Assembly: GCF_002163855.1 (NCBI RefSeq)
Contig: NZ_CP019332.1
Span: forward strand, 2,025,145 to 2,089,144
Direction of reading: 5' to 3'
DNA: 64,000 bases
From: Winogradskyella sp. PC-19
GTDB taxonomy: Bacteria > Bacteroidota > Bacteroidia > Flavobacteriales > Flavobacteriaceae
Below, piece by piece: positions 12,114 through 61,283 of this stretch. Under the pieces are notes generated by a model. That model was not told where the DNA came from, did not search any database, and worked only from the letters and a program-made list of their open reading frames with translations. How positions within the stretch are numbered: position 1 is the stretch's first letter; each line of letters starts with the position of its first letter. Position numbers and translations under genes: made by a program.

Positions 12114-12332
12114 TTAAGCGATTTTTCTTTTTAATAAAAATAGAGCACGAAGCGTACTTTCGAATGTTTTGTCGGCACCACTTGTATTAAAGTTTCCATG
12201 CTTATCTATTATAGTAGAAGAGTTACAATTTTTACATTTTAAATGGTCAGTATCACTTTCACCTTCTTGGGGTTTGTAAAAGTTATGACCAAAAATAATA
12301 CATGATATATTATCAGTGTTAGTAGGTTTCAT
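12114..12332 (-). CDS. small putative zinc-ribbon protein
   Basis: A 72-residue protein starting MKPTNTDN. I prefer this ATG over an upstream TTG. It contains C-x-IFGHN followed by KCKNC, four potential zinc ligands (Cys, His, Cys, Cys), and a basic C terminus (LLKRKIA). It resembles the protein encoded at 18385-18648, which has the same IFGHN and CxxC layout. Function unknown; the spacing also recalls the phage DUF1660 zinc-ribbon family. Confidence 0.6.
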   Translation of the reverse strand: MKPTNTDNISCIIFGHNFYKPQEGESDTDHLKCKNCNSSTIIDKHGNFNTSGADKTFESTLRALFLLKRKIA

Positions 12333-12440: not shown

Positions 12441-13499
12441 TTAATTCTGAAATGAAGGATTATTTATAAAAGAAGGGTCAGAAAGTGTTAGTAAAAATGC
12501 CTTTAAATCTGCTTTGTCTTGTGATGAAAGTTGTACACCGCCTTGATCTATATTTTTCATTAATGGATCGATAGTTGCTGAATTTTGTAAGCCTTCGCTG
12601 TAGAAATCAATAACTTCATTTATAGTTGCAAAACGACCATCGTGCATATATGGTGCTGTAAATGCTAAATTTCGAAGTGATGGCGACCTAAATTTTCCAT
12701 TATCATTTGGGTCACCAGTGACAGCACCCAAACCTAAATCCGTAAATGTAGCATCAAGACCGTTGTTATGAAAGTCATTATCTGTCCATAGTGGATTATT
12801 AGGGTTACCATGACAATGAAAACAGTCGCCTTTATCTTCCCTCAGAAAAACATCTAAACCATTTAGCTCTTGAGGTGTTAAAGTTGCTTGATTAAGAGAA
12901 TATCTGTCAAATTTAGAATTTGCTGAAATCAATGTTCTTTCAAACTGAGCAATAGCCTTTGTAGTTAACTCTTTTGTTATGTCTTCGGTATTAAAAGCAC
13001 GTCTAAATAATTCTGGGTATTCAGGATGATTTGACAATCTATCAACAACATCACCCCAATCACTATGCATTTCTATAGGATTTTCTACTGGTTCTAAGGC
13101 TTGTCTTTCAAGGCTTAATTCTTTACCATCCCAAGAAAAACGTTCGTTGTAATTCCAGGCCAAATTAAAAAGCGGCATTGAGTTTCGGTTTCCTAATGTA
13201 CCGTTGACTCCAGCACTCACGATTCTTTCGTCAGTAAATGCATTTTGTGGACTGTGGCAACTTGCACAAGCTATAGATTGATCACTAGATAAAATTCTAT
13301 CAAAAAACAAGCGTTTTCCTAAAGCGACACCTTCAACGGTTTGAGGATTATCTACCGGAATTACTGGAGGAATGATATTGTTGGAAAATATCTCAGGAAT
13401 TTCTAAATCTAATGCAACAGGTGTGTAACCATCATTATCATTATTTGAACAAGAGCTAAAAATTATACTAATAACTAATATGTAGATGGTTTTTTTCAA
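12441..13499 (-). CDS. di-haem cytochrome c peroxidase/MauG family lipoprotein (MbnH-like)
   Basis: A 352-residue di-haem protein with a lipoprotein leader (FSSC). There are two c-type haem sites: CASCH (78-82) and CFHCH (226-230). The family's PYMHDGRF region lies near 283-290. It sits 2 bases after an MbnP-like gene, the pairing known for MbnH/MbnP, in which the di-haem enzyme oxidises a tryptophan of MbnP to kynurenine. The start must be TTG, since no ATG precedes the signal peptide. Plain peroxidase activity remains an alternative. Confidence 0.88.
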   Translation of the reverse strand: MKKTIYILVISIIFSSCSNNDNDGYTPVALDLEIPEIFSNNIIPPVIPVDNPQTVEGVALGKRLFFDRILSSDQSIACASCHSPQNAFTDERIVSAGVNGTLGNRNSMPLFNLAWNYNERFSWDGKELSLERQALEPVENPIEMHSDWGDVVDRLSNHPEYPELFRRAFNTEDITKELTTKAIAQFERTLISANSKFDRYSLNQATLTPQELNGLDVFLREDKGDCFHCHGNPNNPLWTDNDFHNNGLDATFTDLGLGAVTGDPNDNGKFRSPSLRNLAFTAPYMHDGRFATINEVIDFYSEGLQNSATIDPLMKNIDQGGVQLSSQDKADLKAFLLTLSDPSFINNPSFQN

Positions 13500-13501
13500 A
13501 T

Positions 13502-14272
13502 TTATTGTGAGACAGATTCTAGGCTAAAAACATTACGACCATTTTCAGACATTAATATTTGAGCTGCAGAATTTGGCATAAGAAAAGTATTCAACTGATT
13601 TAAGTCCCAAGTGTTTGGACCTTTAAACCATTCAGCAATGTTCATTTCAATATTAAAAGTTGTATTATCGCCGATAGCGACTGCACCAAGATTAACTGTA
13701 AAAAAAGTATCCTGTGGAAAAGTAGGGTCAGCTCCTGGATTATCTACAGCTCTAATTGCATGATAGTTAAAGCCTAGCTGATTGTTGTTTGCGTCTAAAT
13801 ATTCCCCATCGAATTGCATGTAGTGGTAACCGCCACCTAACATATCAGGCACATTAAATGATGCAGAATTTAAATCTATATAATTTTCGCTATTGTCTTC
13901 ATTATCAAAACCAAAAGTAAAAGAGACATTTCTGTAATCTCCTGTTGGTATTTGAGAGCCTAAGTCAAAACTTAGATTAGTGTCGTTTGTAAGATTTATT
14001 AAGTTATAGACATCTAGTTCTATGACTTCGTTATCTGAATTCGTAAAAGTGACATCAGAAATTAAATACCGAAGCCGTTCGATACTAATCGTTTCTCCAT
14101 TTTCGTTGGTATACTGAAAGGTATTAAAATCTGAGCTCGTTACAGGAGTGCCATCCCAATTATGGCTAAAGTTAAAAGTTGCATTTACATTTGTTTCTCC
14201 TGGAGCGTCATCATCACTACAAGAATAGAAACATAAAGATGCTAAGATTAAAAGGGCAAAAATCTTTTTCAT
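13502..14272 (-). CDS. MbnP-like lipoprotein
   Basis: A 256-residue lipoprotein (lipobox FYSC) with the MbnP-type layout: an immunoglobulin-like beta fold with an IERLRYLISDVTF block (64-76) and the LGGGYHYMQFDGEY block (145-158). Characterised MbnP proteins bind Cu(I) after a tryptophan is converted to kynurenine by the partner MbnH. The tryptophans available here are W39, W215 and W222. Histidines are few (H37, H150, H171), which makes them good ligand candidates. The next gene is the di-haem partner. Copper binding is inferred from family and context. Confidence 0.78.
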   Translation of the reverse strand: MKKIFALLILASLCFYSCSDDDAPGETNVNATFNFSHNWDGTPVTSSDFNTFQYTNENGETISIERLRYLISDVTFTNSDNEVIELDVYNLINLTNDTNLSFDLGSQIPTGDYRNVSFTFGFDNEDNSENYIDLNSASFNVPDMLGGGYHYMQFDGEYLDANNNQLGFNYHAIRAVDNPGADPTFPQDTFFTVNLGAVAIGDNTTFNIEMNIAEWFKGPNTWDLNQLNTFLMPNSAAQILMSENGRNVFSLESVSQ

Positions 14273-14276
14273 AGTT

Positions 14277-15611
14277 TTAATTTATTTTCAATATCATGAG
14301 GTCTGTAAAGCCTCTATTTTCTATAATATCTAAATCATCGCTTGTAGTGTCTCCGACGGCTACAACAGATAGGTCATTTAATTCAGTAACGCCGTAAGCA
14401 AAGTCAATATTGCTTCCACCTGCAGAAGCTTCCCACTGAATATTTGCATTGCTATCAATTTTTACAACCCAAACATCATTTTGTCCTTTGTTCTCTGATA
14501 CATCACCGTCACTACTTCTGGAACTTCCTGTTAGTAGAAAACCATTATCTTCAGTTGTGCTTATGTCTCTGGCGACATCAAATCCACTACCTCCAAATGT
14601 TTTTTGCCAAATAAGATTTCCGTCTGGAGAAATTTTAATTAACCAAAAGTCAGCAGCACCATTATTTCCAGAAACATCTAAGTCGTTACTTCTCGTTTCT
14701 CCTACGATTACAATATTACCATCAGTAGCTTTTACCATGGCTCGAGCCTCTTCTGTTTGTGTACCACCAAACGATTTTTCCCAAACTAAAATTCCGTTTG
14801 AGTCAATACGAATCACCCAAAAGTCATAGGTTCCTTTATTGCCTGAAATATCAGTATCTATACTATCTGAGCCACCAGCTATTATAAAATCGCCGTTGTC
14901 AGTTTCTATAATACCTTCTGCTGTGTCAGTGAAATTACCACCAAAGAATTTGGTCCATTCCATATTACCTGATACATTGAGTTTAATAGCCCAGTAATCG
15001 CCACCAGCATGTCTAGTTGTGTTTGTTCTTGTATTTCCTTGTCCATTAGATGATGTGACGTCTAAAACACCTGTCAGCAGATAACCAGAATCTGAGGTTT
15101 GTATTACCGAAAGTCCCATATCATCACCTTGAAAACCAAATGACTTTTGCCAAGAGATGTTGCCAAAGGCATCTAATTTCGCAATCCAAAAGTCTTGTGA
15201 ACCATTGTTTTCAGTGACATCAAAATCGTCACTTGCACTAGTGCCAATTATTGCATAGCCGCCATCTAAAGTTTGAATGATATCGCGACCTCTATCGTCG
15301 TCTAATCCACCATAAGTTTTTTGCCACTCAATAGCGTTTTGAGCACTAAATTTTATAACCCAATAGTCAAAACTATCATCTTGTTTATCAGTAATATTAC
15401 CATCATTACTTTGTGTGAAGCCTAGAATAGCGTAACCGCCATCTGCAGTTGCAACTACAGATTGCGCACTATCATTATTGGTGCCGCCTAGAGTAGAAAC
15501 AGTAGAAATATTTCCATTATTAGCACTTGGGTTGCTCAAGTCTTCAACACCAGTACAACTTGTAATGAAGCTAATTAGTAGGATATATAAAAAAGACTTT
15601 TGGGTTTTCAT
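14277..15611 (-). CDS. seven-repeat beta-propeller lipoprotein
   Basis: A 444-residue lipoprotein (lipobox ITSC) with almost nothing but repeats after its leader. I count seven units of about 57-65 residues, each starting near GG(S/T/N) and running through DGGY-type turns and DGDVSEN-type loops to a D(F/Y)W(V/I)IK strand and a W(Q/E)K(T/S)F end. Seven such units are what a closed seven-bladed propeller needs. Function unknown; probably a surface or periplasmic binding scaffold. Second gene of the four-gene operon, 11 bases after the first. Confidence 0.8.
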   Translation of the reverse strand: MKTQKSFLYILLISFITSCTGVEDLSNPSANNGNISTVSTLGGTNNDSAQSVVATADGGYAILGFTQSNDGNITDKQDDSFDYWVIKFSAQNAIEWQKTYGGLDDDRGRDIIQTLDGGYAIIGTSASDDFDVTENNGSQDFWIAKLDAFGNISWQKSFGFQGDDMGLSVIQTSDSGYLLTGVLDVTSSNGQGNTRTNTTRHAGGDYWAIKLNVSGNMEWTKFFGGNFTDTAEGIIETDNGDFIIAGGSDSIDTDISGNKGTYDFWVIRIDSNGILVWEKSFGGTQTEEARAMVKATDGNIVIVGETRSNDLDVSGNNGAADFWLIKISPDGNLIWQKTFGGSGFDVARDISTTEDNGFLLTGSSRSSDGDVSENKGQNDVWVVKIDSNANIQWEASAGGSNIDFAYGVTELNDLSVVAVGDTTSDDLDIIENRGFTDLMILKIN

Positions 15612-15622
15612 CTTTTTAGACT

Positions 15623-17215
15623 TTACATACTCTTTCGGACAATAATAAGACCACGCTCGATATCTCCTATTACTATATTACCACTACTAAAATAAGGGTA
15701 TACACTCCATACTCCGTTAAATTCTGAATCATCATTTGGCAGGTAAGTATCTATAAAATGAGTTTCAGTCATTGGATTTGTAGGGGAAGCAATATTAGAA
15801 ATATCTAGTATACGCATACCTGCACGATAATTTGACAAGTAGTATTCGTTACCCAAAACATAGCCATTATGATCTATTGCAGCTGTCGGGCCAAAATAGT
15901 TTGCTGATGGAACTGGGTTATCTAAATCAGAAAAATCAAATATCAAAGTTTTAGTATTGAATCCAAACTGGCGTTCATCAATCTCATCACCTAATATAAA
16001 ATAACGTTGATCTTCGGTAAACCAACCTTGGTGTGCATATGCAGTTTGAGGATAAGTGAATTCGCTTATAGGAATAACATTAGATTTATCTGTAACATCT
16101 AAAATCACAACTTTATCAGTATTTCCGTTACTTCCTACATAGATTTCTTTACCTTGATAATCCTGATCAGGGCCATTATAAGTAATAACTTGTGCATCGT
16201 GAGAATAGCCACCAGCTGTATAGTCTCCTAAAAAAGTCGGATTAAGTGGGTTTGAAATATCAACAAAGATTGGACCACCACCATTAGTAGATGTGCAACC
16301 AACTAAGTAGGCAACAGCTTCACTTTCGTTAATTACAATATTATGACAGCTACCAACGCCGTTGTAAAGTGCGTCAACTGTAAAAGTTTGTGGAGTAGTA
16401 ACGTTTCTTAATCGTGTAAGGTCAAAAACTTGCATACCATGATTACCTACGTTATCAGCAACGATAAAAGCATAATTATCATATACTTTTACATCTCTCC
16501 AAAAATTTGTGCCTGCACTTGAGTTTAATCGACCGAGAAACACAGGGTTTATTGGATCTGTAATATCTACAAAAGCGGTCGTATTTGTTAGACCAACTAA
16601 AGCATATTCTTTGTTTGTGGTTGGGTCAGTCCAACCCCAAATATCACTACCTTCTATGTTAGAAGCAGTACTGCCGCCGAGTGTAGCGACATCTATAGTT
16701 CCCATAACATCAATACCATCACAAGGAAACGGACCAGCCATTCCGCCTTCACATGGAAACAATGGGCTATCTGAGTCATCACAAACATCACCAATACCAT
16801 CGTTGTCAGCATCTTCTTGTCCTGGATTAGCTATTAAAGGGCAATTATCGTCAACGTCTAAAACGCCATCATTATCATCATCAGAATCACAGACGTCACC
16901 TTCTCCATCACTATCAGTATCTAGTTGGTCTGGATTTGCGTTAATAGGACAGTTGTCGTTATCATTTAAAACACCATCGTCATCTAAATCTTCGTCACAA
17001 ACATCACCTATACCATCGTTATTTGCATCGGCTTGGTCATTATTAGGTGTATTGGGACAGTTATCTACATCATCATCAATACCATCATTATCTGTATCTA
17101 CTCCAGAGCCATTTGTAGGTGGTGGCGATGCAGGAGATTCTTCATCATTACAACTCAATGTAAAGAGAGTCATCAAACATAGTAGTAATCCAAGGGTAAG
17201 TTTTGTGATTTTCAT
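15623..17215 (-). CDS. choice-of-anchor B family lipoprotein with thrombospondin type 3 repeats
   Basis: A 530-residue lipoprotein (lipobox TLSC). Residues about 38-150 are Asp-rich calcium-binding thrombospondin type 3 repeats (three DNCP units with DGxGDxCD loops). The remainder is a beta-propeller-like choice-of-anchor B region with LVIVD-type units (AFVDITDPINPVFLG, FVDISNPLNPTFLG, RILDISNIASP). It is first in an operon with the propeller, MbnP-like and di-haem genes. The calcium repeats probably form a rigid stalk lifting the propeller off the membrane; that is inference. Confidence 0.85.
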   Translation of the reverse strand: MKITKLTLGLLLCLMTLFTLSCNDEESPASPPPTNGSGVDTDNDGIDDDVDNCPNTPNNDQADANNDGIGDVCDEDLDDDGVLNDNDNCPINANPDQLDTDSDGEGDVCDSDDDNDGVLDVDDNCPLIANPGQEDADNDGIGDVCDDSDSPLFPCEGGMAGPFPCDGIDVMGTIDVATLGGSTASNIEGSDIWGWTDPTTNKEYALVGLTNTTAFVDITDPINPVFLGRLNSSAGTNFWRDVKVYDNYAFIVADNVGNHGMQVFDLTRLRNVTTPQTFTVDALYNGVGSCHNIVINESEAVAYLVGCTSTNGGGPIFVDISNPLNPTFLGDYTAGGYSHDAQVITYNGPDQDYQGKEIYVGSNGNTDKVVILDVTDKSNVIPISEFTYPQTAYAHQGWFTEDQRYFILGDEIDERQFGFNTKTLIFDFSDLDNPVPSANYFGPTAAIDHNGYVLGNEYYLSNYRAGMRILDISNIASPTNPMTETHFIDTYLPNDDSEFNGVWSVYPYFSSGNIVIGDIERGLIIVRKSM

Positions 17216-53044: not shown

Positions 53045-55393
53045 TTATTCCGAAATAGTTATTTTATGCTTTAATTCGTTTCCGAGCTCATCTACTACAG
53101 TAATAACATGTTCACCAGGTTGAGGTAAGATAGCTATATCATGAATGTCTTTTGTAGCGCCAACATATTTAGTATCAACATACCAGAAGAGTTTTAATTC
53201 AGGTTTTGAGTGTGCTACTTTTAAGATTAAGTCGTTGGTGTTTCCATTAAAATCTTTAGGTAAAAAAATAGTGCTTTGTTGACTAGGATAGATAAATTCC
53301 ATCGATGCTAAAGAAGATTCTACACAATCATTTCTAAAAGCAGGTAGTGCTTTATAAAATGGGTTTTTTGATTTGTAATAATAGGCTTGCAAAGGCGGTA
53401 GTGAAAACCAAGCCTTAGCTTTAATATTTGAAATATCTTCACAAGAAGAATTGACTTGATAACGCCCAGAAGTATCTAAATGAATTAATTTATGGTATGG
53501 ACAAGGTGCTGTTTTTTGCCCACTAATCTGAATAAATTCTGAAGATACATCATCACAAACTGAAGACGCTCGATAACCACTTTTTTTGCAAATTTCGACT
53601 TCTAGCATTTCATCATATGGTTTTGCAAACCAATCACTTTTTGGCAATACGTTATAGATGTCAAATAGAATTGGTGCCGCAGTTTGTACGCCGACCAAAC
53701 CTGGACGACCTTCGCCATCAGCGTTGCCAACCCAAACGCCAACAACATAATCTGAAGTTGTACCAATCGCCCAAGCATCTCTAAAACCAAAACTAGTTCC
53801 TGTTTTCCAAGCAATGTCTTGAGAAGAATCATAAAACTCCCAACTGTCATCATCTTCAGGTCTGTTAACTTGTTTCATACTTTCAAAAGTGAGATACGTT
53901 GACGCCGCATCAAAGATTGTTTTCTCGTTAGAGAGCTTTCCGAAATCAACAGGCGTTGTATCAGTGATAATTGGTTCAGTAAACTCATCAGTATAATATT
54001 GACTACTGTTTTCATTAAAATGATTTAATGTTGATGCCATTGCCGCATAGCTTTTGCATAAGTCCCAAAGATTACTCTCAGCACCGCCCAATACCAAAGA
54101 CAAACCATAATGATTGGCATTATATTTTAAATCTTTAAGCTCTAGTTGTTTTAAATATTGATAAAATCGATCTAGCCCAAAATCTTTTAGCATTCTAACA
54201 GCAGGAACATTTAATGAGCGTGACAAAGCTTTATTGGCAGAAACTGCACCATCATATTCTTTATTGAAGTTTTCTGGTTGGTAACTCCCAAATTGTGTTG
54301 GTATATCTGGCACCAAAGTATTCGGTAGTAAATCACCTGCATCTAGCATCGATGCAAATAAAAAGGGTTTTAAAATACTACCTGTACTTCTAGGCTTGTC
54401 AATTATGTCTACCTGATTTTGATGCGCATTGTCTGTTGGCGAATTACCAATGTAAGTCAAAACCTTACGAGATTTTACATCCAAAACTAAAACAGAAATA
54501 TTATAAATTTCATTTTGTTTTAATTGATTATAATGCTGTTTGACTATTGTATTTGATTGTTCTTGTAATGCAACATTTAAGGTTGTTTTTATGCGTTTGC
54601 CTTTTTGTTTTTTTGCAATTTTCTGAAGTAAATGCGGTGCAACTTGAGGCAATGGATAGGGTTTTTGAGGTAAACCCTCAGAAATTGCTAATTGGTATGT
54701 GAGCTTATCGATTGTACCGCTATCAAATAATTTCTTTAGTAACCGATTCCGTTTTTTAAGTAAGCGTTCTTGGTTTTTTCCAGGATAAATAAGGCTTGGT
54801 GCATTTGGTAAAACTGCTAGTGTTGCACTTTCTGCCCAAGATAAATCCGAAGCATTTCTATTAAAATAGCGCCAAGAAGCTGCATCAATACCTACCACAT
54901 TTCCGCCAAAAGGTGCATGACTTACATAAAGGTTTAGTATGTCTTCTTTTGAAAGTTTAAATTCTAGCCGAGTTGCTAAAACCAATTCTTTTAATTTTTC
55001 TAAATAGGTACGTTTCTGTCCTTTTCTAGATAAACGAATGACTTGTTGCGTAATGGTGCTTCCACCACGTTTTACTTTACCAGAACTAATATTTTGCTTT
55101 AATGCTTTGAAAATTGAGATTGGATTAAAGCCTGGATGATTGTAAAAATAATCGTCTTCAAACTGAAGAATACAGGTTTTAAATTTCTCAGGAATACTAT
55201 CCGTTTGTGGAAATCGCCATTGCCCGTCATCGGCTATCAATGCACCAATTAATTTATTAGAATTATTAGTGATTACTGTTGCTGTTGGGTCTTTAAAGAG
55301 TTGTTTGGGCAAGCAGAAGTAATACGCAATCAAAGTAATAGCCATGATTGCGCTTTTTATTTTATTGCGTTTTATGTAGCGTATTAACTTCAA
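53045..55393 (-). CDS. pbpC: penicillin-binding protein 1C
   Basis: A 782-residue bifunctional peptidoglycan synthase. After a membrane anchor (about 13-28) comes a family 51 transglycosylase (EDDYFYNHPG, E79; GGSTITQQV). A transpeptidase follows (SILK, SLN, KTGTS), then a BiPBP-type C-terminal domain (about 700-782). The start is TTG, directly after the preceding stop, because no ATG lies before the basic N terminus. It forms an operon with alpha-2-macroglobulin, a known pairing. Confidence 0.93.
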   Translation of the reverse strand: MKLIRYIKRNKIKSAIMAITLIAYYFCLPKQLFKDPTATVITNNSNKLIGALIADDGQWRFPQTDSIPEKFKTCILQFEDDYFYNHPGFNPISIFKALKQNISSGKVKRGGSTITQQVIRLSRKGQKRTYLEKLKELVLATRLEFKLSKEDILNLYVSHAPFGGNVVGIDAASWRYFNRNASDLSWAESATLAVLPNAPSLIYPGKNQERLLKKRNRLLKKLFDSGTIDKLTYQLAISEGLPQKPYPLPQVAPHLLQKIAKKQKGKRIKTTLNVALQEQSNTIVKQHYNQLKQNEIYNISVLVLDVKSRKVLTYIGNSPTDNAHQNQVDIIDKPRSTGSILKPFLFASMLDAGDLLPNTLVPDIPTQFGSYQPENFNKEYDGAVSANKALSRSLNVPAVRMLKDFGLDRFYQYLKQLELKDLKYNANHYGLSLVLGGAESNLWDLCKSYAAMASTLNHFNENSSQYYTDEFTEPIITDTTPVDFGKLSNEKTIFDAASTYLTFESMKQVNRPEDDDSWEFYDSSQDIAWKTGTSFGFRDAWAIGTTSDYVVGVWVGNADGEGRPGLVGVQTAAPILFDIYNVLPKSDWFAKPYDEMLEVEICKKSGYRASSVCDDVSSEFIQISGQKTAPCPYHKLIHLDTSGRYQVNSSCEDISNIKAKAWFSLPPLQAYYYKSKNPFYKALPAFRNDCVESSLASMEFIYPSQQSTIFLPKDFNGNTNDLILKVAHSKPELKLFWYVDTKYVGATKDIHDIAILPQPGEHVITVVDELGNELKHKITISE

Positions 55394-55709: not shown

Positions 55710-58700
55710 TTATTTTTCTACTGTAACCCAACGTCCTTTATTTCTAACCAAATAGTCATTGTCATACATGGCTTCAGCTTGTGTTCCAGGTAAATAGTAG
55801 GTTCCTAAATAAGATGCATTTAATAAAACAGTAAATGTTTTAGTTCCATTTTTACCACGACGATTCATATCAAAATAGAAATTAACGCGATCATCCCTAA
55901 TATCAGTATATCTTGCTTGACTCACGGTTGTATCTCCAAAATCTGTAAATCTAGTATTCACAATATCCCAACCTGAAGGGAAAATTTGAGTCAAAGCTAC
56001 ATCTTTTACAATTTCATTATTTAAATTAGAAATGCTAACATTAGCCACAAAATCCTGACCTTGTTGTAATTTTGAAACATCTATTTTGTTGCCTTGTAGG
56101 TCTTTGTAAATTGTAGAAATTGAGAAACCTCGTTTTACGGAAAGCTCTTCTCCAAGTTTCAACTTACCAGAATTTAAAACCCGTACATAAACTAAGTTGC
56201 CGTCTTTGTTTTCAATATTGATTTTATTTAAACCATCTATAACCGGGATTTCTCGTTGCGCAATACCGTTTTTAGTATTTATAGTTTCGGATTTTCCATT
56301 TACAGAATAACTTAGATTTAAATCTTTACCACCATTTTTAGATATGAGTTTACCTATAGATAGTAAACTATAAGCTGTTGTCTGCGTACTCATCCAATCG
56401 TCACTAGATAATGATTTTCCGATAGCTTTGGCTAAATCAACTGCTTTTGGGTTGTCTATAATTAGCATTGTTTCTAGTGCCATAGCACGATTTCTATTTA
56501 AAGAGCCATACGTGTAATAGTTAGATTTTGGAGGCTGAAAATCAATATTTGCTGTTTTTGAAATAGCAGCACTAGCTTCTTTTTGTCCCGCTAAAGCATA
56601 AGCTGCAGCTAATCGCCATTTGGCTTCATTAGAAATTTTTGTAAACTCTCTAAGTCTATTCATACTGGCTAAATCTGGACTACCAGCTAAAGCTAACGTG
56701 TATAGCCTGTAGGCTTGTGCTAAGTCACTATTGTAATTTCTATAGCTTGGTCTCCAATTTCTAGCAGCTTGTTTTTGATAAGCTAACCAATTGCTCTTAA
56801 AAGTAAGCGGAAGGACAAACCCCTTTTTCTCAGCTTCTATCATGAAATGACCAGAATAACTTGTACCCCAATCATTGGCTGTGTTTTCGCCAATCCAATA
56901 ACTCATGCCACCATTTGGTTGTTGAAAATGTGATAAGCGATTGATACCATTTTCGATATTAGACTGGATTTCTTTTTTCTTTTTTGAGTCTAAATCAAAG
57001 ATATCTGCTAAGAATAATTGCGGGAACACACTCGATGTGGTTTGCTCTACACAACCATGAGGATAGCGAATAAGATACGCTATGCGCTTTGTAAAATCCA
57101 TTGGAGGCAGCGTCGAAAACTCGACCGTTGCTGTGTTTGTTCCTGGTACCCCAAATGTTGTAAATGAAACGTTTTGTGTCGCATTAGCCTGCAACTCGTT
57201 ATCAATAATTTTTGATGATATTGGATTCGGATTTTCGACATCAATCTCGACTTTGTAAGTGGATTTTTCGCCATGACCAGAAGCGATAACTTCAATTGTA
57301 TTTATGCCTTTAGCTTTAGAAACATCCAATTCAAAATACGCCATCTTTTCATCCGGATTATCAAATTTAAGAGTTTGTAATTTATTTCCTTTTACGGTTA
57401 CACCATCACTTAATTTTACCTCTAAGTTGACGTTTTTTATTTTATTTTCCATTGCAAAAACTGTAACAGGTAATGTGACCTTTTCTCCTGGACTTAATTT
57501 GCGAGGTAAGGTTGCTAAAACCATTAAAGGTTGTTTTACAGGAACAGTCTTTTCTGCATTTCCATAAGATTCATTGGCGTTATCACCAGCTATCACCATA
57601 GTGCGAACTGAGCCTACATAATTTGGCATTTTAAGTTGATGTATTTTAGTTTCCTCAGCGTCTAAAATAAAAGGTCCTAAATAGGTAACAACAGGTTTAA
57701 AGCGATTTGCTTTTTTGTTTTTTCCTTTAGCAGCACTACCATCACCACCAATCGCAAATACTTGGTCAATGCTACCTGAATAAGCACCAATGACATCATG
57801 GAAAATATCCCATGTTTTCACGCCAAGAGCTTCACGAGAATAAAAACTATCCCAGACATTAGGTGTTTTAAAACGCGTTAAGTCTAGTAAACCTTCTTCG
57901 ACAACAGCTATAGTATATGTCATCGGCTTTGCGTTCTTTTCTGAAACTTTTATTTCGTAGGAGGTTTCAGGTCTAATTTTATTTGGCATTGAAATCTCAG
58001 GTGTTATTCGTGTTTCAGGATTTTCAACCAACATCAGAATCACACCATATAATCGAATAGGTAAATCATTTGAGGTTACATCGTGTGGTTGCAATAACGA
58101 GATATTAATAAACACATTTGGTGCCATAGCTTCCGTTATAGGAATATCTATTGTTGTCTCACCAGGTTTGGTCTCAACCCATTGATAATCTACAACTTCA
58201 GTACCATTTTCAATACTTACTAATGCGCGACCTTCACTTCCTGAAGGAAACGTTAGTTTTGCTGTTTCACCAACATTATAGTTGTCTTTATCAGTTGAAA
58301 AAACGAGCATTTTCGCTGCGTCCTTATCTGATGATGGCGCACTTTGCCACCAATTTTTATAGAAATATGCAGTGCGACCAGTTGCATGACCACTTTTTGG
58401 ATCAAGAATTCGGATTAAATATCGACCTCGTTGGTTATCTGGTATGTTAAGCTTAAAATTAGCCTTACCATTTTTATCGGTGTTAATATTAAATTGCTTA
58501 ACAGGTCTGTGATAACTACTAGAGACATAGCTCGCCAAATCGTCGTAAGACGAATTCCACCACCAACGCCATTCGACTTTATAGACTTTGACTTCAAGAT
58601 TTTTACGCTCAAGAGGTTTTCCGTCAGAAGTTAGTGTTGCAATATCAAACGTGTGATTTTCATCTGTAAAATAAGAACCATAGTTATTACCTTCAGGAGA

Positions 58701-61283
58701 TTGAAGACCAACAAAACTTTCGTAAGGTGCATATGGTACCGTAAACGCATCGAGTGAAAAATCACCACCATTTTCGAAAGCTCTCACTAGGAATTGTGCA
58801 TTAAGCATACCTGGTGCATTTTTTCCGATATTGAGTTTACTATTAATTTTCGTATTGCCTTTTGCATCTAAATTGCCTTCAAAAACTATAGTTTCTTCAC
58901 TTGTAAAATTTCGAGTTGGGTCATTGAAGACGTAATTTTTATAGCCTTTAAAACTTGTTCTTTTTGTTGCGAATTTGGCCTTAACTTCAGCTTTAATATT
59001 TTTAGCTGGTGCGCCATGTAACCAAGCTACATTTAGGTCACCTTTAAGCGGTGTACTGTTGGTGAGAATCTTGTCTTCAAAATCTATTTTAATTTTCAGA
59101 CGATTAGGCTTAACAGTTTCAATTTTAAGTGTTTTGCTAAATGTGGCACCACCAACTGAAACCTTAGCGTAATAGTTTCCTGTTTTATAATCTTGCGAAG
59201 TAGGAACAGTAAAGTTGTAGAAATGATTTACATTATCAATAGATACATGACGATGTACCAATTTGCCGACTGGATCTGTAATTTCTAGTTTAACAGGATG
59301 TCTATTTGGTAGTTTATTGGCTTTGTCATTAAGTACAAAAGTTAGAAATAAACTATCTCCTGGTCGCCAAACGCCACGCTCGCCATAAATGTAGCCTTTA
59401 AGTCCTCGTTGTAAACTTTTTCCGGAAACATCAAACTTAGAAAGTGATAAAGAATTGCCGTCTAAAAGTTTTACATAGCTAGTACTCTGTCCTTTAGCTA
59501 CGATAGCAAAAGTAGCACGTTTATCGGTTTCAATTTCTGTAATACCCTCAATATTTGTTAACCCTTTTACAAGTAGTTGCTGTTGAAAATTATAAAGGCT
59601 AATACTAACACCAGCTTCTGGCTCAGTATTTAAAATGTTAGTAACTGCAAATAAGTATTTATTGGCATTCCCTTTTTTTGCAATGACTCCTAGGTTAGAA
59701 CCAATTAGGTTTTGAGCAACTACACGATTTGAATAATTGTAATAGGAATCTGTACATGGATTATCTTTATCTCTCCAGCGGTAATTGGTATTTCTATAAT
59801 TATAAGTAATGTTGTCCCAGTATTCTTCTTCTAAGCGATTCTGTTCTTCTTCTGAATTATTATCAGAAGCATAGTAGTCGTCTTCGTAATAATCCTCGTA
59901 ATAATCGTCTTCTTCAGAAGATTCTGAAGATGAATTTGCTTCACAGTCATATAAGGAATAGTCTTTTGTGAAACTTAATTCTACACGATAGATAGCGCCA
60001 ATATCAGCTGTGAAATAGTTTGACAAATCAATACTGTAAGCTTTCCACTTTCCAGTGTTTTGGACTGTGTCTTCAATTAATGTAATTGTTTGTTTTGCGA
60101 TGCGCCTACCAACATTTTTAATCCCATATTGGTTATTACTATTAATGTTATTGGTTTGCAAAAATTGAAGCACATTATCTTCAAAAATCTTAATAACGCG
60201 TACATCAACTTTACTTAAGTTGACAGCTTCAAAGTTGAATTTTAGTTCCTTTGAATTAGGAAGAATTGTTCCATTACTTAACAGACGTACTTGAGGTTTT
60301 AAAGACTCGAAAGTCAAGCGCTCTGAGAGGCTGTTTTTTAATTTAAAGCCTTCTGTATTAATTATTCCGGTAAAGATATCGACTTGTATGTCACCTACTA
60401 ATTTTGTGTCTGGATATACTTTAAGGACATTACCATCAACTACATATTTAGGATTTTTAGCTTTTTGAACACTCACCAATCCTGAAAAATTTTGCTGTTT
60501 CTTTAATGGGTCTGAAAAATTAATCGACAAGTATTGTTCAGGTGATTGATGCACTTCAGTATTAGTAATTATAAAATTGTTTTTCCCAGGAATACTAATT
60601 GAGTTTTCACCTTCATTATCTGCGTCAATAGCATCACCGTCCCATTTTATGTCGACTTGACTATCTTCTACAAAACGCTGTACACTGTCTATTTTAAATT
60701 CAAAATATTTTGAAATCTCATTGGCTTCATTCCAAACAAGCTTTAAGCCATTTCCCTTTTGAGATGCGGAAACTAATTTTTTTGCATCCTCTAGTTTGAT
60801 GACATCTGCAGTTCTTAAATACCCTAAAACGTATTGCCATTCTTTGTTATATGATTGTAAATCGGCAGTATTTATATTAAAACTTGGGGTAATTGTTTTA
60901 AACTGAAATGTATACGATTTATACTCTTTAGAACTATTTTTAAAAATATCACCTATGTTAACTGTAACAGAATATTCTTTATCACTTTCTAAAATTTCGT
61001 CTGGTGTAAAAAGAAGTGTTGTTTTATTTAAAGCTTGTAATTTTCCTTGTACGTAGGGTTTTAGTTTTACTAAATCTGTATCTAAGTCTTGCCCAATTTC
61101 CCATGCTTCAACTTCATCTGCGAGCATAATTTTAATAGGCTCTGCTACAGAGACTCTTCCTGTTGTCGTATAGCTTATATAATCTCTAAACTTAAAGATG
61201 TTGTCAGTTTCCGTTGATTTCTCTTTACAAGAGAATGCCATAAAAAAGATGGTAAAAAGAGCAAAGACTTTATTGATGTTCAT
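55710..61283 (-). CDS. bacterial alpha-2-macroglobulin lipoprotein
   Basis: An 1857-residue periplasmic protease trap. The lipobox is FSC (Cys19 or nearby). Macroglobulin-like domains run through the N-terminal two thirds (MG2 region RGVWRPGDSLFLTFVLND). The thioester motif CVEQ is intact (C1411), so covalent trapping of proteases is plausible. A Tyr/Glu/Asp-rich insertion lies near 445-490. Pairing with PBP1C matches the known bacterial A2M/PbpC arrangement, thought to guard the envelope when the cell is breached. Confidence 0.93.
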   Translation of the reverse strand: MNINKVFALFTIFFMAFSCKEKSTETDNIFKFRDYISYTTTGRVSVAEPIKIMLADEVEAWEIGQDLDTDLVKLKPYVQGKLQALNKTTLLFTPDEILESDKEYSVTVNIGDIFKNSSKEYKSYTFQFKTITPSFNINTADLQSYNKEWQYVLGYLRTADVIKLEDAKKLVSASQKGNGLKLVWNEANEISKYFEFKIDSVQRFVEDSQVDIKWDGDAIDADNEGENSISIPGKNNFIITNTEVHQSPEQYLSINFSDPLKKQQNFSGLVSVQKAKNPKYVVDGNVLKVYPDTKLVGDIQVDIFTGIINTEGFKLKNSLSERLTFESLKPQVRLLSNGTILPNSKELKFNFEAVNLSKVDVRVIKIFEDNVLQFLQTNNINSNNQYGIKNVGRRIAKQTITLIEDTVQNTGKWKAYSIDLSNYFTADIGAIYRVELSFTKDYSLYDCEANSSSESSEEDDYYEDYYEDDYYASDNNSEEEQNRLEEEYWDNITYNYRNTNYRWRDKDNPCTDSYYNYSNRVVAQNLIGSNLGVIAKKGNANKYLFAVTNILNTEPEAGVSISLYNFQQQLLVKGLTNIEGITEIETDKRATFAIVAKGQSTSYVKLLDGNSLSLSKFDVSGKSLQRGLKGYIYGERGVWRPGDSLFLTFVLNDKANKLPNRHPVKLEITDPVGKLVHRHVSIDNVNHFYNFTVPTSQDYKTGNYYAKVSVGGATFSKTLKIETVKPNRLKIKIDFEDKILTNSTPLKGDLNVAWLHGAPAKNIKAEVKAKFATKRTSFKGYKNYVFNDPTRNFTSEETIVFEGNLDAKGNTKINSKLNIGKNAPGMLNAQFLVRAFENGGDFSLDAFTVPYAPYESFVGLQSPEGNNYGSYFTDENHTFDIATLTSDGKPLERKNLEVKVYKVEWRWWWNSSYDDLASYVSSSYHRPVKQFNINTDKNGKANFKLNIPDNQRGRYLIRILDPKSGHATGRTAYFYKNWWQSAPSSDKDAAKMLVFSTDKDNYNVGETAKLTFPSGSEGRALVSIENGTEVVDYQWVETKPGETTIDIPITEAMAPNVFINISLLQPHDVTSNDLPIRLYGVILMLVENPETRITPEISMPNKIRPETSYEIKVSEKNAKPMTYTIAVVEEGLLDLTRFKTPNVWDSFYSREALGVKTWDIFHDVIGAYSGSIDQVFAIGGDGSAAKGKNKKANRFKPVVTYLGPFILDAEETKIHQLKMPNYVGSVRTMVIAGDNANESYGNAEKTVPVKQPLMVLATLPRKLSPGEKVTLPVTVFAMENKIKNVNLEVKLSDGVTVKGNKLQTLKFDNPDEKMAYFELDVSKAKGINTIEVIASGHGEKSTYKVEIDVENPNPISSKIIDNELQANATQNVSFTTFGVPGTNTATVEFSTLPPMDFTKRIAYLIRYPHGCVEQTTSSVFPQLFLADIFDLDSKKKKEIQSNIENGINRLSHFQQPNGGMSYWIGENTANDWGTSYSGHFMIEAEKKGFVLPLTFKSNWLAYQKQAARNWRPSYRNYNSDLAQAYRLYTLALAGSPDLASMNRLREFTKISNEAKWRLAAAYALAGQKEASAAISKTANIDFQPPKSNYYTYGSLNRNRAMALETMLIIDNPKAVDLAKAIGKSLSSDDWMSTQTTAYSLLSIGKLISKNGGKDLNLSYSVNGKSETINTKNGIAQREIPVIDGLNKINIENKDGNLVYVRVLNSGKLKLGEELSVKRGFSISTIYKDLQGNKIDVSKLQQGQDFVANVSISNLNNEIVKDVALTQIFPSGWDIVNTRFTDFGDTTVSQARYTDIRDDRVNFYFDMNRRGKNGTKTFTVLLNASYLGTYYLPGTQAEAMYDNDYLVRNKGRWVTVEK

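Follow-up and report, generated by a model that had tools for sequence, protein, structure and literature searches.

A conserved four-lipoprotein operon of Flavobacteriaceae joins two beta-propellers to a divergent MbnP-family protein and an MbnH-type di-heme enzyme

We analyzed a 64,000-nucleotide stretch of Winogradskyella sp. PC-19 (contig NZ_CP019332.1, positions 2,025,145 to 2,089,144; hereafter the window) that carries an operon encoding two beta-propeller lipoproteins (genes 1 and 2), a lipoprotein of the MbnP family (gene 3) and a MauG/MbnH-type di-heme enzyme (gene 4; Table 1). The four genes recur together across Flavobacteriaceae, gene 3 has phenylalanine (Phe) opposite the tryptophan (Trp) that becomes kynurenine in characterized MbnP, and lineages with this substitution keep the enzyme. 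At roughly even odds (probability about 0.5), we read the operon as a dedicated copper-handling module of the MbnP/MbnH type in Flavobacteriaceae, with a kynurenine-less site built on two histidines (His) in the window lineage, where the module would most likely still handle copper through those two residues.

The four open reading frames, all on the minus strand, are separated by gaps of 11, 4 and 2 bases, and every one of them begins with a hydrophobic segment that leads into a lipobox-type cysteine (C22, C19, C18 and C17 in genes 1–4, read off the sequence), which bears out the closely spaced row of four lipoprotein-type genes given in a preliminary description of this DNA. The lipid-carrying cysteine is present in 81/81 aligned copies of gene 2, 81/81 of gene 3 and 79/79 of gene 4, and in 65/95 copies of gene 1, a count that takes in duplicated and truncated copies. 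From this cysteine onward the window proteins read CNDEES, CTGVED, CSDDDA and CSNNDN, and at least two acidic residues at positions +2 to +6 were counted in 58/79, 58/79, 72/79 and 50/79 rows for genes 1–4, using a cysteine-picking rule that sometimes chose the wrong residue and dropping rows without a rule-picked cysteine (16/95 for gene 1, 2/81 for gene 2 and 2/81 for MbnP). The export signals SDDDD and SDDFE are known from work on Bacteroides fragilis and Flavobacterium johnsoniae (PMC5080379); the resemblance of the post-cysteine residues to them is a suggestive hint for genes 1 and 3 and a weaker one for genes 2 and 4. Promoter and terminator scans returned matches at chance level only, and the Rfam search gave no match within the window.

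The grouping of the four genes is not a chance arrangement. Searching with MbnP matched 129 stretches and yielded 118 relatives, of which the best 80 by MbnP similarity were kept, the nearest genomes being Winogradskyella. All 80 loci have the order gene 1–gene 2–MbnP, and MbnH is attached in 78; the exceptions are L055, whose contig ends inside MbnP, and L072, whose MbnH lies elsewhere. Median gaps are 5, 3 and 6 bases (81, 81 and 79 gaps, window included). The flanks are likewise stable, with thiL upstream on the opposite strand in 77/80 loci (L021, L053 and L067 end upstream) and an IscA/SufA-type gene plus sufB downstream in 77/80, this pair being absent within the available DNA of L055, L067 and L072. 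Because these loci had been picked by MbnP similarity, a second sample was drawn independently of that choice. The window type of MbnP occurs in 61 of 199 Flavobacteriaceae genomes (match of at least 241 bits; the next match reaches 78 bits, bar a second fragment at 141 bits in one carrier genome), and 60 of these 61 hold the complete four-gene set, the remaining locus (L317) being cut by a contig end. The co-occurrence that the preliminary description had proposed to look for is thus found in both samples. In L072, MbnP and both propellers lie on contig C5 of genome G020 and MbnH on C18 of the same genome; this MbnH is 64% identical to that of the window, and a different gene follows the L072 MbnP.

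Gene 3 scores 101.3 bits against the MbnP family PF20243 (cut-off 27), which makes it a member, and its predicted fold matches the MbnP fold, so that the earlier assignment as MbnP-like holds. Against TIGR04052, the copper-binding MbnP equivalog, it scores 13.1 bits (cut-off 140), a threshold reached in 0/296 Bacteroidota genomes. In the PDB sequence search the subclade profile found no match and the window protein alone found one chance match; the link to the Methylosinus MbnP structure 7l6g comes from the fold and from the profile of MbnPs with a Trp-x-Trp (WxW) motif. In characterized MbnP, the first Trp of WxW is the residue turned into kynurenine and the methionine (Met) two residues before it is a ligand; the Trp-to-kynurenine site was reportedly described by Manesis et al. 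in 2021. When the 61 family sequences and the window protein were aligned as a profile with 84 WxW-type MbnPs (E 5.7e-33), the first Trp was matched by F139 of the window and the second by V141, after which come four inserted residues and a GGGYH motif. Position 137, the Met site, is alanine in the window and Met in 0/61 and 0/81 sequences of the two samples. H171 is kept in 61/61 and 81/81 sequences and H150 in all 61 family genomes, the latter being invariant in the subclade. With Phe at position 139, the published Trp-to-kynurenine reaction cannot take place at its usual position in the window protein, and kynurenine formation as given in the preliminary description is therefore not supported for it; the absence of the conserved Trp, which that description had named as a refuting outcome, holds for the window protein. 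Since it lacks the Trp and the Met and fails the equivalog cut-off, we place gene 3, judged by sequence, as a divergent protein within the broader MbnP family and not among the kynurenine-copper MbnPs. The idea of a copper-protein pair is still reasonable in the sense that genes 3 and 4 are a genuine pair of the MbnP/MbnH type and may work like one.

The substitution at position 139 is confined to part of the family. Trp occupies this position in 54/61 family-wide sequences and Phe in 7/61, so that the conserved Trp expected from characterized MbnP is missing from the window and present in most of the family; among the 80 relatives plus the window, Phe is found in 55 (54 of them relatives) and Trp in 26. 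Position 141 is Trp in 11/61 family genomes, and the WxW motif thus survives at 139–141 in part of the subclade. The only His residues of the window MbnP are H37, H150 and H171, and its only Trp residues are W39, W215 and W222. Across two overlapping sets, Phe139 sequences keep H37 in 61/62, W39 in 61/62 and M152 in 62/62 cases, and Trp139 sequences of the 61-genome sample have glutamine (Gln) at 37 in 12/54 and leucine or Gln at 152 in 9/54. This retention would fit compensation, but the Phe lineages are mutually related. Three intermediates (L159–L161) already carry GGGYHYM with their Met and Trp still in place (NMEWP); a fourth, L184, has an insertion inside GGGYH and is counted among the intermediates solely from the alignment and the enzyme tree. 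Position 139 changed at least four times on the enzyme tree, which was built quickly and has long branches to its outgroup, so that the Trp-to-Phe direction rests on the outgroup and the wider sample. The suggested order is a gain of His150, then loss of the Met and the second Trp, and then replacement of Trp139 by Phe. An early candidate, in which WxW was lost subclade-wide and replaced by W39 in H37-x-W39, came from the 81 sequences biased toward close kin of the window and was rejected: with Trp139 in 54/61 and Gln at 37 in 12/61, W39/H37 cannot be the general site.

We also surveyed the MbnP family across Bacteroidota. PF20243 matches occur in 78/296 genomes at 101 places, and all places bar that of G003 were fetched as 100 regions, from which 100 distinct MbnP-like frames were obtained (two frames from each of three regions, none or a repeat from three others, and some regions cut by contig ends). 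These comprise 85 WxW-type frames, 2 of the window type with both propellers, 4 intermediates without propellers and 9 others. An MbnH-like gene lies within 400 bases of all 85 WxW frames, and gene 1 or gene 2 is near 0/85, so that within this sample the two propellers accompany only the window subclade. Several variants were seen along the way. In L162, L164, L166 and L168 the second Trp is shifted (W-x-x-W) and not lost, with a second, more divergent MbnP-like frame immediately upstream in L162 and L166. In seven loci (L171, L173, L175, L178, L186, L191 and L194) a single WxW-type MbnP is followed by two tandem MbnH-like genes. Four genomes (G015, G016, G018 and G019) hold the operon plus a second PF20243 protein with its own MbnH-like gene, 40–41% identical to the window enzyme; MbnP/MbnH pairs thus seem to be dedicated.

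Gene 4 was confirmed as the MauG/MbnH-like di-heme enzyme that had been described. It matches CCP_MauG at 194.7 bits, and its best NCBIfam model is TIGR04039 (MbnH), at 269.9 bits with a cut-off of 362.85, compared with 182.1 bits against the MauG model (cut-off 443.85). The closest solved structure is 6e1c, entitled "Di-heme enzyme" (E 1.5e-57), which we take to be Methylosinus MbnH. Heme-binding CxxCH sites lie at residues 78–82 and 226–230, and Tyr300 aligns with the Met of the classical di-heme peroxidase 1iqc and with the tyrosine of 6e1c; tyrosine in place of the distal Met is also found in MauG and MbnH. Both CxxCH sites, Tyr300 and Trp123 are present in 79/79 sequences.

A quick tree of 117 MbnH-type partners was built from 22 of the 79 enzymes in the window set plus L158 and L163, 4 intermediates, 84 WxW partners and 5 others (the L232 partner was labeled W, and the L179_6692 partner N though its MbnP is of the WxW type). 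The 24 operon enzymes form one clade with a Shimodaira–Hasegawa-like approximate likelihood ratio test support of 99, and the four intermediates form another (96); the node joining the two lacks strong support (85) and also includes two other rows, L183 being one of them. Among the 24 relatives' genomes searched, 16 are of the Phe139 type. The enzyme is kept in 16/16 of these, and 15/16 have no other PF20243 match, genome completeness not being stated. The enzyme has a median ratio of nonsynonymous to synonymous substitution rates (dN/dS) of about 0.06 among Phe lineages (14 pairs) and about 0.07 among Trp lineages (20 pairs); each set was drawn from 7 loci, and 7 and 1 saturated pairs, respectively, were discarded. 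Overall, dS is near saturation and 17/126 pairs were dropped. Retained and constrained in this way, the enzyme still seems to have work in the Phe lineages without its known target residue.

Gene 1 combines a TSP_3 match (100 bits) with a strong match to TIGR04312, choice-of-anchor B (510.6 bits, cut-off 100). The calcium-repeat stalk and propeller previously described are therefore both present in the window, but the stalk lies outside the conserved core: by a simple pattern, at least two TSP3-like repeats occur in 33/95 gene 1 copies and none in 56. Gene 2 has a single, weak match, to SBBP/LipL53-like proteins (41 bits, cut-off 400). The gene 1 model, which used an alignment of 44/95 copies, has an overall predicted local distance difference test score (pLDDT) of 88.1 and a predicted template modeling score of 0.74; it is of good quality for most of the propeller and dips to a pLDDT of 55 in one block. 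In it, H291, H339, H395 and H449 lie no more than two residues from the point where the first strand begins in four consecutive blades, with H259 nearby. All five residues are invariant in 95/95 operon copies and, together with a WGW motif, in 21/21 rows of a second alignment, made of the window and the 20 best TIGR04312 loci; L262, L264 and L266, at least, are themselves operon copies, so these loci are not all independent of the operon. In beta-propellers generally the central channel is lined by the first strands, so a metal site in the modeled gene 1 channel is plausible. The top Foldseek match is 5hrm, a metal-dependent propeller phosphotriesterase (E 8e-14, 17% identity), which in the VIA ranking ties with many WD40 propellers. 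No selenium-binding protein/methanethiol oxidase is among the 50 listed fold matches, an absence that says nothing because WD40 propellers fill the listing. TIGR04312 occurs in 110/296 Bacteroidota genomes (92 over the cut-off), and no MbnH-like gene was found within a 1.5 kb search radius in the 20 best loci. Gene 1 is present in tandem copies (>300 bits) in some relatives, with two in 10/81 rows, three in L026 and four in L069; rows with a duplicated gene 1, located upstream of gene 2, include L005, L024, L026, L027, L036, L066, L069 and L078.

Under the copper-module reading, the four lipoproteins would probably share a place on the outer membrane and perhaps point outward. In the family at large, MbnH would most likely oxidize Trp139 of MbnP to kynurenine, and His150, His171 and Kyn139 would form the finished Cu(I) site, which would chemically resemble the two His plus kynurenine of CorA/MopE more than the His/Met/Kyn arrangement of Methylosinus MbnP. 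The propellers would act as docking or delivery partners, and the ring of invariant His in gene 1 could hold a metal. In the window lineage, where Trp139 has become Phe, the site must work without kynurenine at that position, presumably with His150 and His171 and with Met152 and His37 as candidate further ligands, and the target or mode of action of the retained enzyme must differ.

Several observations weigh against this reading. Both TIGR models of the pair stay below their cut-offs in the window, and the row nearest the operon clade in the enzyme tree is L183, the partner of a WxW-type MbnP, joined at 93. In the predicted MbnP model, residues 131–150, the stretch up to His150, have a pLDDT of 60–64, and the putative clustering of H37, H150 and H171 in space derives from sequence position and predicted strands only. 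H37 is His in 45/61 and Gln in 12/61 sequences and M152 is not Met in 9/61, so that neither is a universal ligand, and L001 lacks both W139 and W39. Finally, L258, L260 and L261, among the 20 best TIGR04312 loci, have an SBBP-like neighbor in genomes without a PF20243 match; the propeller pair can thus exist without MbnP.

A different outcome, which we consider unlikely, is that the modified Trp has moved and MbnH oxidizes W39, W215 or W222, preserving a kynurenine copper site in new form. Each of these residues is present in 80/81 sequences of the relatives set and in 55/61, 56/61 and 61/61, respectively, of the family set, the enzyme is strongly constrained, and the H37-x-W39 spacing mirrors, in reverse order, the Kyn-x-His of CorA (PMC3912023). 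W39 is further retained in nearly all Phe139 sequences (the 61/62 given above), and the five family sequences with Phe in its place all have Trp139. Yet W39 is also kept in 48/54 Trp139 sequences (one gap), so its presence is nothing peculiar to sequences that lost Trp139, and L001 manages without either residue. Somewhat less probable still is that MbnH serves the gene 1 propeller, making or repairing a protein-derived cofactor or metal site there, with MbnP as metal donor; a role of this sort has been proposed for the MauG-like gene next to the copper-dependent methanethiol oxidase (mtoX-SCO1-mauG). By analogy, this operon-like arrangement, in which a copper enzyme is encoded together with SCO1 and mauG (PMC5739008), would speak for it, as would the invariant blade His with H259, the WGW motif and the top fold match to a metal-dependent propeller hydrolase. 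Against it, the same His and WGW are common to TIGR04312 proteins in genomes without the operon, and TIGR04312 is widespread among Bacteroidota yet absent near the WxW-type frames, so that the motif seems not to need MbnH; the 5hrm match, moreover, is tied with unrelated WD40 propellers.

The enzyme could also be a plain di-heme peroxidase detoxifying surface peroxide, with the MbnP-like protein of Phe lineages a relic or structural subunit. Such a role would be favored by the loss of the kynurenine Trp in several lineages, position 139 having changed at least four times, but Tyr300 replaces the classical Met ligand in 79/79 sequences, and MbnP itself is conserved (dN/dS about 0.08) with His150 and His171 kept throughout; we regard this explanation as about as improbable as the propeller target. 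A combination of ideas, that the window lineage holds a natural kynurenine-less MbnP still dependent on an MbnH re-aimed at another MbnP Trp or at the gene 1 propeller, seems to us a long shot of the same order as the moved Trp; in the propeller, the enzyme would create a previously undescribed metal site or protein-derived cofactor.

The pair differs from the methanotroph MbnP/MbnH systems (TIGR04052/TIGR04039; 7l6g and 6e1c) in having Phe-x-Val in place of WxW, in the loss of the Met of MxW, in the four-residue insertion with the new His150, in scoring below both TIGR cut-offs and in being lipoproteins encoded in one operon with two propellers. A further difference is that MbnB (TIGR04159, PF05114) was found in 0/24 relatives' genomes, a search that did not include the window's own genome or MbnA and MbnC. 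This agrees with the earlier statement that no methanobactin gene is present. The corresponding idea of a methanobactin-independent version stands as far as these genomes go, but not as a novelty, given that PMC3621798 describes the MbnP/MbnH pair as conserved far beyond the methanobactin producers analyzed there and that 85 of the 100 Bacteroidota frames surveyed above are WxW types, each with its MbnH-like neighbor.

In CorA/CorB and MopE/SACCP, a surface or outer-membrane copper protein is encoded beside a di-heme peroxidase-like gene and has two His and a kynurenine (PMC3912023). The H150/H171/W139 set of most family members resembles this arrangement, whereas the window has no Trp at 139; no sequence relation to CorA/MopE turned up, and none was searched for. 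The binuclear-metal propeller phosphotriesterase of Sphingobium sp. TCM1 (5hrm) was compared with gene 1 by fold alone. The copper-dependent methanethiol oxidase (SBP56) is a propeller as well. In the mtoX-SCO1-mauG operon it is encoded with a MauG-like enzyme (PMC5739008), a likeness to the propeller and MauG-like enzyme found together here; the window differs in having no SCO1 in the four-gene row, TIGR04312 in place of SBP56, and an MbnP partner. No literature linking an MbnP pair to two propeller lipoproteins was among the matches listed from open-licence papers. As far as searched, the altered-site subclade, its fixed link to two propellers and a natural Trp-to-Phe lineage that keeps the enzyme are new.

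The MbnH/MbnP pair, in which the enzyme creates a metal site by remodeling an amino acid, has been worked out only recently. The sequences above form a natural series, from the Met-Trp-His site of other Bacteroidota, through an intermediate with an added His, to the two-His plus Trp type of most Flavobacteriaceae carriers and on to Phe with the enzyme kept. With this series, the need for kynurenine and the further targets of such enzymes can be put to a direct test, and the operon ties an MbnP pair to a set of two lipoproteins with propellers.

Table 1. Features of the operon, in window coordinates
Feature	Position	Strand	Basis
Gene 1, TSP3 calcium-repeat stalk + TIGR04312 (choice-of-anchor B, LVIVD-type) beta-propeller lipoprotein	15623..17215	-	
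Gene 2, SBBP-like beta-propeller lipoprotein	14277..15611	-	
Gene 3, MbnP-family (PF20243) lipoprotein, divergent subclade, GGGYH motif	13502..14272	-	
Gene 4, MauG/MbnH-type di-heme lipoprotein enzyme	12441..13499	-	
Phe139 codon (TTT), opposite first WxW Trp	13856..13858	-	alignment
His150 codon (GGGYH), subclade-invariant, candidate new metal ligand	13823..13825	-	
His171 codon, aligned with conserved His of WxW-type MbnP	13760..13762	-	

Two further features of the window were recorded on the minus strand. Between gene 4 and the IscA/SufA gene lies a 72-residue zinc-ribbon-like frame (12114-12332; MKPTNTDNISC...CKNCN), and by a simple pattern a similar frame occupies that spot in 48/78 rows tested, window included; it may be an unannotated member or neighbor of the operon. 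Elsewhere, a bacterial alpha-2-macroglobulin (55710-61283) adjoins a PBP1C-type penicillin-binding protein (53045-55393), which is a known pairing.

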